Below are positions 54,355 to 62,811 of a stretch of DNA of 64,000 bases, one piece after another (within the stretch, counting starts at the first letter, position 1; each line of letters starts with the position of its first letter). Below the pieces are notes generated by a model. It made no database searches and was not told the origin of the DNA. It worked only from the letters and a program-made list of their open reading frames with translations. This DNA is from Olivibacter sp. XZL3 (lineage in GTDB: Bacteria > Bacteroidota > Bacteroidia > Sphingobacteriales > Sphingobacteriaceae), in NCBI RefSeq assembly GCF_004368405.1, contig NZ_SBJH01000109.1:1-64000 (forward strand), given 5' to 3'. The translations under genes and the position numbers were made by a program.

Positions 54355-54900
54355 ATGGGAGATATTGAGAAATTCATTACCGACAACAGGAAAGCATTTG
54401 ATGATGAATTACCACCTGATGGGATTTGGGAGAACATAACAGCGGTTTTCGAGGGGGAAGATTTAATAAAAAAGCGCGAGAAATCCTTACGTCTTAGGAC
54501 TATGGTATCGGCAGCAGCCATGTTGGTGCTAATAGCTAGTGCGGCCATCTTATTTTACTATACACGTCCGTCTGCCCGTCTTGACTACAGTCAGATAGAC
54601 CCGGTATTAGCGAAACAACAAGTAGAATACGCTTCGCTGATTAATGAGAAAAAAGATGCTTTATCGACTATGGCTATGAACGATCCACAGTTGTATCAGG
54701 AATTTACAGCGGTTATTGAAAAAATGCAGGCAAACTACAAACAACTCAAAACGGAACTCAATCAAAGTCCAAATAAAGAGTTAACCTTAGAAGCGATGAT
54801 CAATAACCTAAAGGTACAGATTGAAGTTCTTAATCAACAGTTGGAAATTTTAAATTATATCCATAAACAAGAAAAAAAGACTCCTTATGAACAGATATAA
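54355..54900 (+). CDS. Single-pass membrane protein, possible anti-sigma factor
   Basis: No named family recognised. The 181-residue product (ATG at 54355; an upstream ATG at 54289 would add 22 basic residues) has a soluble N-terminal part with ELPPDGIWENITAVFEGE, one transmembrane segment (about 49-69) and a coiled-coil-like C-terminal part rich in Glu, Lys and Gln. This architecture and the position directly after an ECF sigma gene suggest an anti-sigma factor, but the anti-sigma domain is not recognisable. It overlaps the next gene by 14 bases. Confidence 0.7.
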   Translation: MGDIEKFITDNRKAFDDELPPDGIWENITAVFEGEDLIKKREKSLRLRTMVSAAAMLVLIASAAILFYYTRPSARLDYSQIDPVLAKQQVEYASLINEKKDALSTMAMNDPQLYQEFTAVIEKMQANYKQLKTELNQSPNKELTLEAMINNLKVQIEVLNQQLEILNYIHKQEKKTPYEQI

Positions 54901-56101
54901 AATCGCTGTCTATATAACTATAGCTCCCTTGCTTATACTGAGCCAGCTTACCTTGGCTCAAGACGAAAACGGAGGAAAGAAACTAGCCCATAGCCTTGAA
55001 GCGACCGCTGCAAAAATTGAAGGTATGACGAACAAGCTGACAAAGCAGCTGAAAGAGATCAACACCGATGAAATTGTGCAACGCGCCGAGCGAATCGCCC
55101 GTTTTTCTGAAGAGCAGGCAGAGAAAATAGTAAGCAAGACGGCAACTATCGATTGGGAAAATGAGCTTCCCCTGTTGGATCCAAAAAATGGGGGCGTAGA
55201 ACAAACGAAGACGGTACAAAAAGTTTATATTATGTCCAGAAACACCCCACTGACTATTGACAACCGTTATGGCAAGGTGGAAGTAAAGACTTGGGCAAAG
55301 AATGAAATTAAAGTAGACATCGTCATCAGGGCCGTGGAAGCCTCGGGAAGCAAAGCCGAGGAAATCATCAACAGTGTTTCCATTGCCGAAACGAAGTCTC
55401 CGAATAATATTTCATTGGTTACGCAAATCAACAGGGGAAAATCAAGTTGGTGGAACAATGTTGTTAGCGGAAATAACCGAGGCGTACAGATCAATTACCT
55501 GGTGTACTTGCCAAAAACGAACTCGCTCACCATCAACAATAGATACGGTGCCGTCATTTTGCCCGATTTAGCAGGCAGTGTAGACTTGGACGTTTCCTAC
55601 GGCAGTTTAAATGCCGGCAGATTGTCGGGCAGTAGTATCCGCGTTAATTCCAGCTACGGATCAGCAAAAATTGTGTCTGTAAAAGATGCCGTCTTAGATT
55701 TCAAATATGGCAGTATGGATTTAGGCGAAGCCGAAAATATACAGTTAAACATTGGATATTGTGGTGGCAGTCAAATAGGCGTTCTTAAAAGCTCAGGCGA
55801 TGTTGCTATCAAATATTCCGGAGGCTTCAAGATTGGATTAGCCGAAACCATTCGGAAATTGAACCTAGATGCGGCATATTCGTCGAGCACTGTCCGAATT
55901 GATCCTGCCGCTCATTTCTCTTATCAAGTTGATGTTAGCTACGGCGGATTCGACAAAGGCCATGCTGTTATTACAAAAGAAGAGCCCGACCCTAGCGAAC
56001 GTGGTCCGAAGCTTCATAAAACCTACCATGGCTATTTCGGAAAAAGTTCGGCTAACCAGGTACGAATCGACTCGAAATATGGTTCGATAACGTTTAAGTA
56101 G
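54887..56101 (+). CDS. Exported DUF4097-like beta-repeat protein
   Basis: A 404-residue exported protein with a signal peptide (about 1-24, ending LAQ) and a heptad-rich stretch at about 30-90. The C-terminal two thirds form repeats of short strands with motifs NRYGxV, SYGS and SKYGSI, a pattern of adhesin-like or head-GIN/DUF4097 families. It would be on the periplasmic side or surface. It overlaps the membrane protein gene and is likely the target or effector of the sigma circuit. A precise function cannot be given. Confidence 0.72.
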   Translation: MNRYKIAVYITIAPLLILSQLTLAQDENGGKKLAHSLEATAAKIEGMTNKLTKQLKEINTDEIVQRAERIARFSEEQAEKIVSKTATIDWENELPLLDPKNGGVEQTKTVQKVYIMSRNTPLTIDNRYGKVEVKTWAKNEIKVDIVIRAVEASGSKAEEIINSVSIAETKSPNNISLVTQINRGKSSWWNNVVSGNNRGVQINYLVYLPKTNSLTINNRYGAVILPDLAGSVDLDVSYGSLNAGRLSGSSIRVNSSYGSAKIVSVKDAVLDFKYGSMDLGEAENIQLNIGYCGGSQIGVLKSSGDVAIKYSGGFKIGLAETIRKLNLDAAYSSSTVRIDPAAHFSYQVDVSYGGFDKGHAVITKEEPDPSERGPKLHKTYHGYFGKSSANQVRIDSKYGSITFK

Positions 56102-56215: not shown

Positions 56216-59026
56216 ATGGACCCTAAACTACTTCCTCATGTTATTTGCCGCACGCCTCTTTTTTCTTTTGAAGACACATTAAATGATAAATGGGACGAAC
56301 TGAAAGAGGCCATTAAAATTTCGTCAAAAGACCTTTACGAACAAATAAAAGACACCACGAGCGAAGGCTATGATCAACTTCCACAAAAAGTGAAATTCTC
56401 CTGTTGGAAGTATTTCAATCGCGCTCGGTTCAGAGCCACCCCTTTTGGACTTTTCGGTTCCATCACGCTGCTGCCCATGAATAAATATGGGGCTAAAATT
56501 GTTCTTAAAAAAGAACCTAGCCTTCGCTCATTTACCAATTGGGTCCATAAAGACACGTTATTATCCAACACGGAGTCACTATATAAAAAAGCCAATCTCA
56601 TTCGTGCCAACACCTCTGCTTATCCCTGCGGAGACCAACTACGCTATATAAGCACTTTAGAAGATGGAACTTTTGAGATTGCCTCCATTGAAAGGCAGCC
56701 GGTCATTGAAACGGTGTTAATGCTATGTAAGGATTCCATTGCCAAAGAAAAAATTGTAGAACACCTTACCCATAGGCAGAAGCTTCACCTATCAGTTGCA
56801 GAAGACCTATTGATGCAGCTCATTGAATTGCAATTGCTACTGACCGATCTGCATCCGAATATCATCGGCACCGATTATTTTAAGCGGGTCGGCTTGAAGT
56901 CAACAGCACCGCAAAGAGATCCTTATTTCATCTCGGCCCGGTCCTTACTGGAGGGCAGCGTCTCCAGCGGACAATTTAAAGTGATACCCGAAGCCATTAA
57001 TTTCATAAAAGACTACCTGCCACAAACCTCTCATAAACCGCTTGAAAAATTTAAGCGCGCCTTTCAGTCGAAATTTGAATACCGGGAAGTGCGCTTATTA
57101 GAGGCACTCGATCCCGAAATAGGTGTAGGGTATAATGAGTTGGAATCGTCGCCCGGTACGGACGAATTGGTAGACCGCTTGGTGAACAATCGGTTAATGC
57201 AAAATAATGATCAAGTCCCCTACACACCATTCCATCAGTTTCTATTAAACGGCATACTTAAAGGAGAAAATATTCAGCTAGCAGACCTAGCCAAACATCA
57301 GCTGCCTCTGAGGAAAGCTACGCTACCGAACACGTTTGGCGCTATCGTCAAGCAAGTAGATGATCAATTGTATGTCGAACAAGCCGGAGGTTGTACGGCC
57401 AACTCTCTTTTAGGCCGATTTACATTGGAAGAACCAAACTTGACAGATTACTGCAAAACCTTAGTGGCGAAAGAAGAAGCTGCTAATCCAGAAGTGCTGT
57501 TTTTTGACATCGCTTATCAATCGGAAAAAAAAGTTGATAATGTAAACCGTCGGAACCGACTTTATAATTATGAAGTCACCCTTGTCGGTTGGAGTGATCA
57601 AGAGCATTCTTTACCACTGGACGACCTACTAATTAGTGTGAGAAACAATGAAGTTATACTCCGTTCAAATAGATTAGCCAAACGGCTGGTGCCTCGCTTA
57701 GCGAGCGCCTATAATTACTCGCGATCAGACCTGTCTGTTTATCGCCTCCTATGCGACATACAACATCAAGGCCTTCAAACGAATCTGGCCGTTAATCCCT
57801 CGAAGATATTTCCTAACCTTGATTACTATCCGCAAGTAACCTACAAGAATGTTGTGTTTTCGCCTCGCATGTGGAAGGTTCCAAAAAAAACCTTGTTTAG
57901 TGCCACTTCACCTGTTAAGGCATTAAAAAAGTGGCTGCGAGCAGAAGCGATACCCGCTAAATTCAAATGCTTCAGTAACGATCAGTTTCTTTTATTCGAT
58001 TCAGCATCGGATGAGGATCTGGAGTTCTTCCTGCAATACACTAAAAATGGGGGTGAGCAGTATATTACGGAAGTAGCCTTACCGAAAAAGCCCTTGGTCG
58101 AAGACGAGCTTGGTCGTCCATATCTTTCGGAAATGAACCTTCAATTTTATTGCGAAACGAAGCCCTACACAGCTGTCTCAAGGGCCATCACCAAGAACAG
58201 CCATACCGACGCTCTTTCACTTATAGGGCAAAACTGGCTGTATTTTGAAATATACGCGCATTCATTACGTTCTGATGTCATATTGACCGAAACGATAACT
58301 GCCTACCTAAAATTGATAAAGCAACACGTGAGCAAGTGGTTCTTTATTCGTTATTCCGTTCCGTCACCACATATCCGCCTACGCCTGCACCTAAAGGAAC
58401 CTAAGGCATCATTTCATAAAGCCGTTAGTGTTTTAACCGCTTTATTAGAAAAAGACATCCGTAGCGGTGTGGTGACAGATCTACAAATAAAAAATTATCA
58501 TAGAGAAATAGAGCGTTATGGTTTGAGCAGGATGGATCGTGCAGAACGTTGCTTTTGGAAAGAAAGTAAATACACATTACTGCTTATCAACAGCAAGATC
58601 GATCGTCCAACGAGCTATCGATTCGTACTACGCTTAATAGACGATTTATTCAAAGGCTTGGATTTTAATTACAGCCAAGTAATGGCTTTTGCAAAAAAGG
58701 GGGCCGATGCCTTTGCCGATGAATTTAAAGCCGGCATAAAGGAGTTTAAAGCCATAAACGAAGCCTTTGAACCATTTAAGGAAGACGATCACAGTTTTTC
58801 GTCAACAAAAAAGATTGAACGTGCCTATCAGACCGCTTTGAAAGAAATAATAGATTTACTGAAACAAAGCGATGCAGACGATCGCCTGCAATTAATTAGC
58901 GATTTAGTCCACATGCATGTCAATAGGCTCTTTTCAAGCGACCAACGCGTTCATGAGTTTATTATTTACCAATTTTATCTGAAACAGCTAAGGAGCCGAC
59001 AAAGCCGTTTAAAACAGACAGTTTAA
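56216..59026 (+). CDS. Lantibiotic dehydratase, LanB type (full length)
   Basis: LanB enzymes use glutamyl-tRNA to glutamylate Ser/Thr of a peptide and then eliminate glutamate, giving dehydroalanine/dehydrobutyrine. The 936-residue protein contains the glutamylation domain, starting with CRTPLFSFED (11-20) and FRATPFGLFGS (72-82), and the C-terminal elimination domain from about residue 650 with WFFIRYSVPSPHIRLRL (Arg712, His719, Arg721) and an IERYGL near 767. Both halves are therefore in one gene. No LanC cyclase, lantibiotic transporter or protease is adjacent. A Ser/Thr-rich, Cys-free peptide gene lies at 60178. The 3' end overlaps the convergent kinase gene by 65 bases. Confidence 0.9.
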   Translation: MDPKLLPHVICRTPLFSFEDTLNDKWDELKEAIKISSKDLYEQIKDTTSEGYDQLPQKVKFSCWKYFNRARFRATPFGLFGSITLLPMNKYGAKIVLKKEPSLRSFTNWVHKDTLLSNTESLYKKANLIRANTSAYPCGDQLRYISTLEDGTFEIASIERQPVIETVLMLCKDSIAKEKIVEHLTHRQKLHLSVAEDLLMQLIELQLLLTDLHPNIIGTDYFKRVGLKSTAPQRDPYFISARSLLEGSVSSGQFKVIPEAINFIKDYLPQTSHKPLEKFKRAFQSKFEYREVRLLEALDPEIGVGYNELESSPGTDELVDRLVNNRLMQNNDQVPYTPFHQFLLNGILKGENIQLADLAKHQLPLRKATLPNTFGAIVKQVDDQLYVEQAGGCTANSLLGRFTLEEPNLTDYCKTLVAKEEAANPEVLFFDIAYQSEKKVDNVNRRNRLYNYEVTLVGWSDQEHSLPLDDLLISVRNNEVILRSNRLAKRLVPRLASAYNYSRSDLSVYRLLCDIQHQGLQTNLAVNPSKIFPNLDYYPQVTYKNVVFSPRMWKVPKKTLFSATSPVKALKKWLRAEAIPAKFKCFSNDQFLLFDSASDEDLEFFLQYTKNGGEQYITEVALPKKPLVEDELGRPYLSEMNLQFYCETKPYTAVSRAITKNSHTDALSLIGQNWLYFEIYAHSLRSDVILTETITAYLKLIKQHVSKWFFIRYSVPSPHIRLRLHLKEPKASFHKAVSVLTALLEKDIRSGVVTDLQIKNYHREIERYGLSRMDRAERCFWKESKYTLLLINSKIDRPTSYRFVLRLIDDLFKGLDFNYSQVMAFAKKGADAFADEFKAGIKEFKAINEAFEPFKEDDHSFSSTKKIERAYQTALKEIIDLLKQSDADDRLQLISDLVHMHVNRLFSSDQRVHEFIIYQFYLKQLRSRQSRLKQTV

Positions 59027-60089
59027 TCTGCACCTTGGTTTGAAAATAATTTTTCCCATCGCGGAAATAAGTAAATGTAGCCTGATCGCCATAGGTGTGC
59101 TCCAACCTCTTCGCGATGTTTTCCAGGCCTTTGCTTAAACCAGTGGTATTATGAATGGCATTAATTAAGTTTTTTGTCTCAATGAATACGCTGTCCTCAT
59201 CTGTATATAATCTTAGGGTGGCAGGATGATTAGACAAGGATAAATTACCGTGCTTAAAAATGTTTTCCGTTAGCGTTATTAAAACTAAAGGGATCATCCA
59301 AATACTCCGGACTTTTTCCTCTACTTCTATATTGAAATAAATCTGATGGTTCTGACGCAGTCGGTGCAAGTGAATGAGATTATGCACCTGTTCAATTTCC
59401 TCTTCAATAGCGATATAGCCTTTATCTTCACTACTTTCTACCGCATAACGCATCATGGCCGACAGCGTCAAGATAGCATCCGCCGCTATAGGCGCAGATT
59501 TCCGCGTTTTGTTGTAGATAAAATTTAGCGTATTAAACAAAAAATGGGGATTGATCTGTGCCCGCAGATAAGCGTTCTGTGCGTTGGCCAATTCCTTTTC
59601 CATCTTCTGTTGTGCAATAATCTGGTGAAGCTGCCGTCTTTCCAAGCTGGCCGTTCGCTCTTTTTCTTTCAATAAGTTGATTAAGAAATAATATCCAGTT
59701 GAGAAACCAATGAAATATAACGTTCGCCAGGTAACCTTTATAAGATTAGCTCTTTCGAAGTTAATACGTTCGATGCCAAAAAAGTGAGGATAATACGAAG
59801 CGAAATTTGCGATAACATAATAAAACAGATAATACGCAATTACTTCAAGGACGATGCCTGCTGGCAATGTAAGAAAGGCGATTCCTCTTTTCAGGATTCT
59901 AGGCAAAACATAGTGCGCATGGAAATAGAACAAACCTATATAGATCGCATAATGTACAATGTAGGAAGGGGGCTTCCCAAATTTCCCTGAAACGATGCCT
60001 ACGATCATCGTTTCGTAGAGCATAAATATTGTCCAAGTAATTATGTGAGCACGGTATTTCAGTAAAAAATTTAGAAACGTTTTACCCAT
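58962..60089 (-). CDS. LytS/YesM-type sensor histidine kinase
   Basis: A 375-residue membrane histidine kinase. About four hydrophobic segments occupy residues 10-140, followed by a coiled linker and the HisKA_3/His_kinase block with phospho-acceptor His182 in QINPHFLFNTL and the N-box ENIFKHGNL near 290. No extracellular sensory domain is visible, so it probably senses through its membrane part. It pairs with the LytTR regulator upstream on the same strand (248 bases away) and converges on the LanB gene with a 65-base overlap. Confidence 0.92.
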   Translation of the reverse strand: MGKTFLNFLLKYRAHIITWTIFMLYETMIVGIVSGKFGKPPSYIVHYAIYIGLFYFHAHYVLPRILKRGIAFLTLPAGIVLEVIAYYLFYYVIANFASYYPHFFGIERINFERANLIKVTWRTLYFIGFSTGYYFLINLLKEKERTASLERRQLHQIIAQQKMEKELANAQNAYLRAQINPHFLFNTLNFIYNKTRKSAPIAADAILTLSAMMRYAVESSEDKGYIAIEEEIEQVHNLIHLHRLRQNHQIYFNIEVEEKVRSIWMIPLVLITLTENIFKHGNLSLSNHPATLRLYTDEDSVFIETKNLINAIHNTTGLSKGLENIAKRLEHTYGDQATFTYFRDGKNYFQTKVQIKLSVLNGFVGSLAVSDKIGK

Positions 60090-60177
60090 AATTTTTCGGT
60101 TTCGTGTAAGCTAGAGCACATTCTGTGTAAAAATTTTGCACCGCAATATAATAACTCCCAATTTTAAAAGAAAAGCC

Positions 60178-60297
60178 ATGAAAAAGATTGAAATTACAAA
60201 AAAAACAGTTTTCCTGTTTAAACAGGCTAAAAAAAATGGACAGGTAAAAAGTGAAACTAACACTACCGAACTTCTTACGTGGACTTTCACAAATTAA
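60178..60297 (+). CDS. Putative RiPP precursor peptide, cysteine-free, Thr-rich
   Basis: A 39-codon gene between the kinase and regulator genes on the opposite strand. Residues 1-15 (MKKIEITKKTVFLFK) follow the pattern seen at the start of Bacteroidota class I lanthipeptide leaders: a Lys-rich start, alternating hydrophobics and KxTV. Residues 25-39 hold seven Ser/Thr (25, 27, 29, 30, 34, 36, 38) and no cysteine; the tail ends TWTFTN. A purine-rich aaaagaaaag precedes the ATG by about four bases. If real, it is a substrate of the LanB encoded upstream, giving dehydrated residues but no lanthionine rings. Too short for routine gene callers. Confidence 0.6.
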   Translation: MKKIEITKKTVFLFKQAKKNGQVKSETNTTELLTWTFTN

Positions 60298-60337
60298 AAA
60301 TTCAAACAGTTTTAGTTGGTTGGTTTTAAAGACTGGT

Positions 60338-61072
60338 TTAGTTATGACGGCCAGTCTTTATTGTATTCTTTAATAGGTAATCATAAAAGGCGTCTTTATA
60401 AAAGGTACCTATGGGGACAAGTATATTCTTTGGAAGTTTCACAAGACTCCCTTCCACTTTCTCGATGTAATTTTTCGAAATAATAAAGGAACGATGAATT
60501 TGGATAAAATCGTCCGTTTCATCAAAACGTTCCTTTATCTCTTTTAACGTTAGATAGGTCATAATTTCTTCCGAAAGCGTGTGGATTTTAATATAGTTCT
60601 TGACACTTTCGACAGCAATTACTTCATCAAATTTGACCCGTACAAAGCGATTCCTTTCCTCGGTTGTTTTAACGTAAAATTCCCTGGTACTCTCCTCCGC
60701 ATGCGACTTAACATCCTCTTTGATTAATTTACTGATCGTTAAAGCAAATTTAGCAAAGGTAAAAGGCTTTAATAAATAGGCGTCAGCTTCCACCTCAAAT
60801 GCTTCGAACGCGTATTTAGTATGAGCGGTGGTGAAAATCAACTTATCCGTCTTACTCCGCACCGCCCTGGAAAGATCTAAACCGGATATACGGGGCATAT
60901 CGATATCCATGAATATAAAATCTACACCATCGCCTTGGCCAATTTCTGTCATTGCCTGAATCGGGTCAACATAACTGTGTAACAGTCTTAATTCAGGCAT
61001 CTGTTGTATATAATCTGCGATAATCTCTATGGCATCGGGTTCATCGTCGATAACAATACAGGTATGGGTCAT
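60338..61072 (-). CDS. LytTR response regulator
   Basis: A 244-residue response regulator. Receiver domain with acidic DDEPDA at 9-14, phospho-acceptor Asp56 in FMDIDMP and Lys near 106 in LLKPF; LytTR DNA-binding domain from about residue 140 with ESVKNYIKIHT and FIQIHRSFIISKNYIE. It is probably phosphorylated by the kinase gene downstream and may control the peptide and dehydratase genes. A strong promoter (CTTG, 20 bases, TAAGTTTG) lies directly upstream. Confidence 0.94.
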   Translation of the reverse strand: MTHTCIVIDDEPDAIEIIADYIQQMPELRLLHSYVDPIQAMTEIGQGDGVDFIFMDIDMPRISGLDLSRAVRSKTDKLIFTTAHTKYAFEAFEVEADAYLLKPFTFAKFALTISKLIKEDVKSHAEESTREFYVKTTEERNRFVRVKFDEVIAVESVKNYIKIHTLSEEIMTYLTLKEIKERFDETDDFIQIHRSFIISKNYIEKVEGSLVKLPKNILVPIGTFYKDAFYDYLLKNTIKTGRHN

Positions 61073-61290: not shown

Positions 61291-62793
61291 TTAATCCGAT
61301 GGGTTTTGATCGGAGGTACTTAATGCTTTATTTGCATTGATTTCATCCTGAGGTATAGCGAACAACCATCTGTTCGTGCTGGCTGGCAAATCGAACAAAT
61401 TAGGATTAAAGTTATTTGCTGTTCCTCCGTTTAGGTTGGCACCGGCGTGATTACCTGGCCCAGTTGGTCTATTCAATCCGTTGCCTAAACGTTTAATATC
61501 CAATAATCCGAATCCCTCACCCCAAAGCTCTATCTTTCTCTGAAGCAATATCTCTTGTAAAAGCGCATTACCGCCAAGGTTCGAAGCCGAGTACGATGGA
61601 TAACGCGTTACTACCAAGCTTTGTAGGGCGTCAATAGCAACTCCATCCTGCCCTAACCTTGCTGCTGCTTCAGCCTTAATCAAATACATTTCCGCTAATC
61701 GCATTAACAAATAGTCAGAAGCCCAATTACCCGACTGCCGAAGTTGGAATTTGACCTGCGAATAAATCGGCAGTTCAGCATCAGGGCTTCCCGCAAACAT
61801 ATTTTTACGCACATCTTCTTCCGGAATTTGATCATACAACGCTTTGGTAATTTTCTTCTGTGTACCCAAAGCAGCATACCCTCCGGTCGCCTGACGGTTA
61901 TCCATATGCGAGTAGAACGATGCGAAGATGGTTGATTGCTCTACGTTCACTTCTAATCCCCACAACCATTCGGCAGAACTCAGCGTATTGAAACCCGCAG
62001 CCGTATATTGCCCTTGCGTAAACAAGGATGCATCACTATTTGCAATTGCTTGATCCGCGACTTGAAGCGCCGTATTATAGTCGCCATATTGAAGCGCTAC
62101 ACGCGCATGAATCCCTTGAGCAGTTGCCAGGTTAATATGCGATCGATGAACTCTAGATTTTCCCGCCAATAGACGCTCTGCCTCTGTTAGATCTGCAAAA
62201 ATTTGGTTATACACCTCTTGTACCGTTCCCCGACCTTTGCCTTCCGTGGTTGGTTCCGTGTAAAGTGGCACTCCGGGGCTGTTCAAATCCGTTTTACAGA
62301 AAAAATTAACTAAATAATAATAGGAATGCGCACGCAATGCCAAAGATTGCCCTATAATGTGGTCTTTATCTTCTTGCGTACCTGTTGCATTAGGCACTTG
62401 AGCGATAATTCTGTTCACATTGTTAATAATACGATAATAGTAATACCAAGTCCGGTCGGGACGTTGATCCGGCTGTGCATTACTAGCTTGCGCATAGTTG
62501 TAGTCGGTGTTAAACCATCCGTATCCCTGGCTATGAACCACCATATCCTCGCCCATCAAGTCGGACACTAAATCATAGGCTTTTTGCCCAAAATTTCCGT
62601 GGTTGGTAAGCGAAGAATACATCGTTCTGATCGTTCCGTTCAGTGCAACCATCGCACCATCCGTTGTTTCAAACACGGTCTCCGCATCAACGTTATCGGT
62701 TGGGTTCGTTTCTAAATATTCCTTTTTACAGCTTGTCACTAGGAAGATACCAGCGAATGCGACAAGACTGATTCTTTTATATATCTTATTCAT
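61291..62793 (-). CDS. RagB/SusD family nutrient-uptake outer membrane lipoprotein
   Basis: Surface lipoprotein that captures glycans or other nutrients for its TonB-dependent partner. The 500 residues from the ATG at 62793 include a lipoprotein signal with lipobox VTSC at Cys22, then YLETNPTDNVDAET, SLALRAHSYYYLVNFF and LMRLAEMYLIKAEAAARLG, which are SusD TPR-region signatures, and the usual C-terminal RKIELWGEGFGLLDIKRLG. It is 18 bases downstream of susC. The ligand cannot be told from sequence. Confidence 0.95.
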   Translation of the reverse strand: MNKIYKRISLVAFAGIFLVTSCKKEYLETNPTDNVDAETVFETTDGAMVALNGTIRTMYSSLTNHGNFGQKAYDLVSDLMGEDMVVHSQGYGWFNTDYNYAQASNAQPDQRPDRTWYYYYRIINNVNRIIAQVPNATGTQEDKDHIIGQSLALRAHSYYYLVNFFCKTDLNSPGVPLYTEPTTEGKGRGTVQEVYNQIFADLTEAERLLAGKSRVHRSHINLATAQGIHARVALQYGDYNTALQVADQAIANSDASLFTQGQYTAAGFNTLSSAEWLWGLEVNVEQSTIFASFYSHMDNRQATGGYAALGTQKKITKALYDQIPEEDVRKNMFAGSPDAELPIYSQVKFQLRQSGNWASDYLLMRLAEMYLIKAEAAARLGQDGVAIDALQSLVVTRYPSYSASNLGGNALLQEILLQRKIELWGEGFGLLDIKRLGNGLNRPTGPGNHAGANLNGGTANNFNPNLFDLPASTNRWLFAIPQDEINANKALSTSDQNPSD

Positions 62794-62811
62794 CACTTCT
62801 ATTCAATTGTT

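Follow-up and report, generated by a model that had tools for sequence, protein, structure and literature searches.

A stretch of 64,000 nucleotides from Olivibacter sp. XZL3 (hereafter the window; part of contig C122 in a 5.36-Mb assembly of 122 contigs, rated 100% complete) carries a compact gene block centered on LanB, the lantibiotic dehydratase that dehydrates serine and threonine through glutamyl-tRNA. The full-length LanB (936 amino acids [aa]; 56216-59026, forward strand) contains both the glutamylation and the elimination domain (Pfam Lant_dehydr_N, PF04738, 4e-73; Lant_dehydr_C, PF14028, 2e-49; TIGR03891). Its gene converges with that of a LytS-type sensor histidine kinase (375 aa; 58962-60089, reverse strand; His_kinase, PF06580, 8e-20), which overlaps the 3′ end of the LanB gene by 65 bases; the N-terminal half of the kinase is hydrophobic, as judged by hydropathy, and its histidine box, NPHFLFN, lies at residue 180. 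From a common 88-bp region, the kinase gene diverges from a gene encoding a threonine-rich, cysteine-free precursor peptide of 39 aa (MKKIEITKKTVFLFKQAKKNGQVKSETNTTELLTWTFTN; 60178-60297, forward strand), with a putative leader of approximately residues 1-24 and a putative core of approximately residues 25-39. A LytTR-type response regulator (244 aa; 60338-61072, reverse strand; Response_reg, PF00072, 5e-16; LytTR, PF04397, 1.6e-16) closes the block. A preliminary description of this DNA had proposed a closed block of four genes, and all four were found in place, with their domains confirmed by Pfam and TIGR03891.

The block is flanked by an open reading frame (ORF; 54887-56101) that matched nothing in Pfam and by a gene of the SusD family (61291-62796). 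No cyclase, protease, or transporter gene was seen adjacent to it among the window ORFs and their Pfam matches, in agreement with the absence noted in the preliminary description. The convergent ends of the peptide and regulator genes contain an inverted repeat, AAAGACTGG / CCAGTCTTT (60328-60359), which, as read from the sequence, is a possible two-way terminator; it was not among the output of a terminator scan that accepts only loops of 3-8.

Recurrence of the module in Sphingobacteriaceae

A profile built from six LanB proteins was run against 399 Sphingobacteriaceae genomes, and at least 211 of them matched at E 1e-80, with a maximum of two places scored per genome. The LanB studied here, defined as the 129 listed places with scores from approximately 565 bits upward, including a partial one, occurred in 122 genomes. 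We examined 86 of these places, which fall into 58 groups below 70% identity; 80 of the loci were added by the analyst's choice, mostly from the top of the profile ranking, and do not form a random sample. The nearest named relative was Olivibacter jilunii, of the same family (LanB identity, 65%). In a class-wide draw of 395 genomes, all five matches at E 1e-150 or better belonged to Sphingobacteriaceae; one of the five was partial and came from a second LanB lineage.

The canonical order of LanB, convergent kinase, peptide gene or genes, and regulator was present at 72 of the 86 loci (44 groups). The conserved peptide gene anticipated beside LanB homologues was there at every one of these 72 loci, in one to seven copies within the gap between kinase and regulator (143 peptides in total), and all 143 profile matches lay inside this gap on the LanB strand. 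The peptide profile was made from canonical-locus peptides, and matches there are partly circular; less circular support came from the lack of any match outside the gap in the 72 loci and from peptides found at 6 of the 14 non-canonical loci. These 14 loci are arranged differently: besides the six with profile matches, five had look-alikes by eye and three had nothing. Accordingly, 8 of the 86 loci lacked a profile match, with a threonine-rich, leader-like ORF visible by eye in five (L128, L142, L145, L149, and L155) and neither a match nor a look-alike in L135, L152, and L154. Among the 78 loci with any match, 54 had one copy, 8 had two, 3 had three, 1 had four, 7 had five, 3 had six, and 2 had seven.

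When ORFs of at least 90 aa from the 86 loci were clustered, all 58 groups contained the regulator family and all but one (57 of 58) contained the kinase family. After these, the most frequent families reached 15 of 58 groups (SusD-like by eye) and 14 groups (two families of genes syntenic within a single part of the tree); apart from LanB, kinase, and regulator, with this maximum of 15 groups, no cyclase, transporter, protease, or immunity family among the clustered ORFs recurred with the module. With 16 LytTR matches per 5.36 Mb in the Olivibacter genome, chance alone would place a LytTR gene no more than 3 kb from any one LanB in approximately 2% of cases, and a chance neighborhood was rejected on the recurrence of the regulator and kinase families across the groups. 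Distances of LanB, kinase, and regulator correlated at 0.92-0.95 over the 67 loci in which all three were picked automatically, and 0 of 1,000 permutations gave a LanB-kinase correlation as high.

Two side observations concern the surroundings of these loci. At L109, L116, L117, L119, L121, L123-L125, L127, L129, L136, L144, L148, and L151, another regulator-like match lies 2.3-3.4 kb past the LanB end, on the opposite strand, and is possibly a neighboring duplicate of the system. A C39-type ABC transporter gene lies 4-11 kb from the LanB end at L117, L121, L126, and L152.

Conservation and composition of the precursor peptides

The window peptide contains eight threonines, one serine, and no cysteine, and it matched no Pfam or NCBIfam model; seven more peptides (two encoded at other LanB loci of the Olivibacter genome, five belonging to the module family) had no NCBIfam match and only sub-threshold Pfam matches. 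When a profile with the window peptide among its members was run against the Olivibacter genome, that peptide alone matched strongly, the runner-up standing at E 0.7. In the leaders of 50 group representatives, a lysine, a hydrophobic position, a threonine (43/50), and an aromatic residue at window position 14 (50/50) are conserved, and the cores share a TDPTT motif with Thr in 38, Asp in 32, Pro in 45, Thr in 43, and Thr in 29 representatives. Window residues T10, T29, and T36 were invariant in an eight-sequence alignment; in the wider alignment, the positions of T29 and T36 held threonine in 29/50 and 31/50, respectively. Threonine made up 20.5% and serine 12.0% of the C-terminal halves of 150 peptides; the corresponding shares in ORFs of 90 aa or longer were 6.5% and 6.8%.

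Short intergenic ORFs are often spurious, and a peptide without any database family could also mean that the ORF is untranslated or not a substrate, with the conserved gap acting as a regulatory RNA. However, the ratio of nonsynonymous to synonymous changes per site (pN/pS) within tandem arrays was 0.20 for the leader and 0.26 for the core, as calculated from non-independent pairs, and the window and O. jilunii peptide genes differ mostly synonymously per site (15.3 changes per 21.2 synonymous sites versus 19.7 per 89.8 nonsynonymous sites). The leader and threonine pattern, moreover, is conserved across the 50 groups. The peptide genes are under purifying selection in both leader and core; a non-coding gap was rejected on these values, and the RNA explanation appears extremely improbable.

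Cysteine was absent from 135 of the 143 canonical peptides and present anywhere in only eight, making the cysteine-free state the rule for canonical loci, not for every relative. Loci with a C-terminal cysteine outside the canonical order were L134, L146, L150, and L153 (by profile) and L128, L145, and L149 (by eye), and the C-terminal cysteine of these divergent relatives is perhaps the older state.

Predicted LanB chemistry and the absence of LanC

Window LanB residues R69, R73, and T75 align with R83, R87, and T89 of NisB, and R721, R723, E764, R767, H899, and R904 align with NisB R784, R786, E823, R826, H961, and R966; we assume the roles and numbering of these NisB residues, printed chain numbers being three higher. 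Every relative (86 of 86) shares all of the aligned window residues, with T75 as the sole exception (85 of 86). For the presumed equivalents of NisB R14, D299, and R464 (window R12, D299, and R445), 85-86 of the 86 relatives have the same residue. Because the catalytic positions are conserved, both LanB half reactions, glutamylation and elimination, are expected. LanB-like enzymes with other outcomes do exist, such as the peptide aminoacyl-tRNA ligases (PEARLs), and LanB might transfer glutamate or another residue without elimination, as a tag or extension, or the dehydro residues might later be reduced to D-amino acids. This is quite improbable, given that both domains are present, that the positions we take to form the NisB elimination site (R784, R786, E823, R826, and H961) do not vary among the 86 relatives, and that the module has no additional recurring enzyme family. 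Structure predictions of the kinase and LanB from two-sequence alignments had low confidence (mean predicted local distance difference test scores of 45.7 and 32.6), and no claim is based on them. The LanB profile also matched the Protein Data Bank entries 4wd9/6m7y (NisB) and 9g04; 9g04 and 9g05 occur in the MadB paper (PMC12241602).

No LanC match (PF05147) was found anywhere in the Olivibacter genome, which speaks against a LanC encoded elsewhere in it; the same search found LanC-like matches in 110 of the 399 family genomes. Among the genomes carrying this LanB (122 in all), a LanC-like match was lacking in 69 and present somewhere in 53, the nearest on a shared contig, among the places listed, lying 10.7 and 14.6 kb from LanB. 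Those 53 genomes, together with the peptides that do carry cysteine, would suit an ordinary class I lanthipeptide route with the cyclase and the cysteine partner encoded elsewhere, but the lack of LanC in Olivibacter and in the 69 genomes, a distance of at least 10.7 kb among the listed places, and the predominance of cysteine-free precursors render this route very improbable. The earlier remark that the lack of cysteine fits the absence of LanC holds for the Olivibacter genome and for many relatives, but not for a minority of mostly divergent relatives, which carry cysteine.

Direct repeats in the promoter regions

Sites of LytTR-family regulators are usually spaced 21-22 bp. Inside the 88-bp kinase/peptide intergenic region, a direct repeat, TTTCGTGTAA-N11-TTCTGTGTAA (60100-60130, forward strand), has a 21-bp period and is the window's best candidate LytTR-regulator site; with up to three mismatches, it was the sole match to its pattern in the 64-kb window, and 100 shuffles gave none. 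Repeat scores in the window were 8/11 at the peptide promoter, 9/11 upstream of LanB, and 6/11 upstream of the regulator. In the upstream regions of 49 group representatives (43 for the regulator), a statistic counting any 21-bp repeat revealed enrichment: two runs gave z values of 9.2 and 10.0 for the peptide and 6.4 and 7.9 for LanB, and z was 8.1 for the regulator. Periods other than 21 bp were mostly near chance, one exception being z 2.5-2.6 at 22 bp upstream of the peptide.

A proposed model of a self-amplifying peptide signal

Building on gene content, conservation, purifying selection, catalytic positions, and repeats, all of which are directly observed, we infer a course of dehydration, export, cleavage, sensing, and feedback. 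The leader of the small precursor, with its lysine and aromatic residues, would be bound by LanB, which would dehydrate threonine and serine in the core using glutamyl-tRNA. Because the peptide has no cysteine and no LanC was found in the genome, the product would stay linear and free of lanthionine rings, containing dehydrobutyrine and some dehydroalanine. Export and leader removal would be carried out by enzymes encoded elsewhere, and the mature peptide would most likely serve outside the cell as a signal that the LytS kinase detects with its membrane portion. In response, the kinase would activate the LytTR regulator, which would bind the repeats spaced at 21 bp in the shared promoter region of peptide and kinase and, in relatives, also at the LanB and regulator promoters, resulting in a positive feedback loop. 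Taken as a whole, we find it rather likely that the block is a compact module for a ribosomally synthesized and post-translationally modified peptide (RiPP), in which LanB produces a linear dehydrobutyrine peptide serving as a self-amplifying signal for the kinase and regulator.

The steps of this model differ in strength. Modification of the peptide by LanB is the strongest and is very probable: the proposal that the peptide is the LanB substrate is well supported by genomic context, the shared leader, and the conserved catalytic positions, with dehydration itself as the predicted outcome. A ring-free mature product is likely. Sensing is the weakest step; the chances that the mature product is the kinase ligand seem to us evenly balanced, and the best support for it comes from the LytTR-type repeat between the kinase and peptide genes.

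Several observations weigh against the model. Export is unexplained because neither a transporter nor a protease gene is a recurrent part of the module (within the fetched flanks, a C39-type ABC transporter appeared in 5 groups by clustering and at 4 of 86 loci by motif), no double glycine was seen in the window leader, and the window peptide has no hydrophobic stretch; C39 peptidase matches in the Olivibacter genome are on other contigs only, none being on the window contig. The proline of the common TDPTT motif is missing from the window peptide, as it is in five of the 50 representatives including the window, O. jilunii, and G004. Cysteine occurs in the C-terminal half of 6 of the 143 canonical peptides, from 3 loci, and near the C terminus at 7 of the 14 non-canonical loci (four by profile and three by eye), and the LanC-like matches in 53 of 122 genomes point the same way. 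The presumed equivalent of NisB D121, window K112, is not aspartate and varies, being lysine in 55 of 86 relatives. The correlated distances of LanB, kinase, and regulator could also result from descent as a single block. As for the repeats, the 21-bp statistic takes any repeat regardless of its sequence, the LanB upstream regions also gave z 3.7 at 16 bp, and for 90 other genes the upstream regions had z values of 2.4 (21 bp) and 2.3 (20 bp). The window repeat upstream of LanB (TGCTGTAAGCT/GGCTTTAAGCT) differs in sequence from that at the peptide promoter; because of this difference and the score of only 6/11 upstream of the regulator, control of the LanB and regulator genes is less clear in this Olivibacter strain. 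Finally, the study is purely computational.

The function of the product could also be a different one. Many characterized LanB products are antibiotics, two-component control is common for bacteriocins, and at 19 of the 24 multi-copy loci the cores (last 22 residues) were not all identical, which would fit a mixed antimicrobial output; the dehydrated peptide might then be an antimicrobial whose production the kinase and regulator control on another cue. In contrast, all cores were identical at 5 of the 24 loci, core variation in the arrays is under the purifying selection described above, and immunity, transporter, and protease families are not among the recurrent genes of the module. This lack of any additional recurring gene family makes the antibiotic option look less likely, and we consider it possible but unlikely.

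If the preferred reading of a linear, LanB-made signal peptide is true, LanB would have a role outside lanthionine chemistry, within a compact and testable four-gene system, and a signaling product would represent a dehydroamino-acid pheromone class in Bacteroidota. This LanB occurs in 122 of the 399 family genomes sampled, and the full module occupies 72 of the 86 loci examined.

Comparison with known systems

The predicted linear peptide with dehydrobutyrine is a feature shared with linaridins and other dehydrobutyrine-rich RiPPs, which use dehydration enzymes unrelated to LanB. PEARLs and the split LanBs of thiopeptide and pearlin pathways likewise belong to the LanB superfamily outside lanthionine formation; these are small or split proteins, whereas the module LanB has both domains fused and its catalytic positions conserved. 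Similar to the LytTR-family peptide quorum sensing of Agr and Com ABDEX, the module brings together a peptide gene, a histidine kinase, and a LytTR regulator, with a repeat at the peptide promoter. It differs in having LanB rather than AgrB as the modification enzyme, a kinase of the Pfam His_kinase (LytS) type, and a ligand role that is proposed here. Class I lanthipeptides (nisin with NisB/NisC; in Bacteroidota, pinensin and the Pedobacter lusitanus peptides) share with the module a full-length, NisB-related LanB with matching catalytic positions and a short precursor with a lysine-rich leader and a Ser/Thr-rich core, but the module has no LanC, mostly cysteine-free precursors, and no recurring transporter or protease gene. 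The leader motifs of class I, as given in a section of PMC7268733, are FxLD or, in Bacteroidetes, LxLxKx5L. Of these, LxLxKx5L was scanned for: its strict form occurred in 0 of 50 peptide representatives and a loosened hydrophobic form in 12 of 50, compared with 3.4 in shuffles; the window leader stretch compared with it was IEITKKTVFLF.

The mining described in part of PMC7268733 discarded ORFs without cysteine in the estimated core, and cysteine-free systems would have been missed there for this reason. A section of PMC3091789 describes screening with LanC and mentions Bacteroidetes LanBs away from LanC, and a passage of PMC10352776 reports no LanB in Bacteroidales. The P. lusitanus work is cited in a passage of PMC12328550, and two-component quorum sensing is surveyed in PMC8895600. 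Searches of the open-licence literature found no description of a cysteine-free LanB/LytTR module, although one may be in print elsewhere.

Other LanB lineages

LanB matches occur on five contigs of the Olivibacter genome. Fifteen further LanB loci were fetched, fourteen of them within Sphingobacteriaceae, and the kinases, regulators, and receivers of the second lineage and the third type described below were judged by size, place, and eye. A second LanB lineage (approximately 940-1065 aa) has kinase- and regulator-sized genes in place, and at seven loci (L160, L161, L163, L165, L169, L170, and L171) it has a threonine-rich peptide without cysteine in its C-terminal part. L162 resembles this lineage but has two cysteines, and no peptide passed the Ser/Thr filter at L158, L167, and L168. 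In a third type, a small peptide (core, for example, DETVSSMTFTTSNFI) is followed by a receiver-like protein of approximately 124-134 aa and then LanB, as seen at L007:12089-12244 and L008:9535-9711 (contigs C104 and C116 of the Olivibacter genome, respectively) and at L157, L159, and L164. These peptides end in SSMTFTTS-like cores without cysteine, some of the leaders containing one or two. L166, from another family, has an ordinary cysteine-containing precursor.

Cysteine-free LanB substrates may be common in Sphingobacteriaceae. We see roughly even prospects for a large, unrecognized RiPP class in this family, consisting of LanB-only, ring-free dehydrobutyrine autoinducers of LytS/LytTR pairs and perhaps extending to its further LanB lineages with cysteine-free precursors; mining that starts from LanC or drops cysteine-less precursors would miss such a class.

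At two further places in the Olivibacter genome, L009 (C70) and L010 (C111), LanB is cut at the contig end and adjoins a C39-peptidase ABC transporter. L010 has a 94-aa candidate precursor without cysteine near its C terminus, and C70 also carries a LytTR regulator and a kinase-sized gene.

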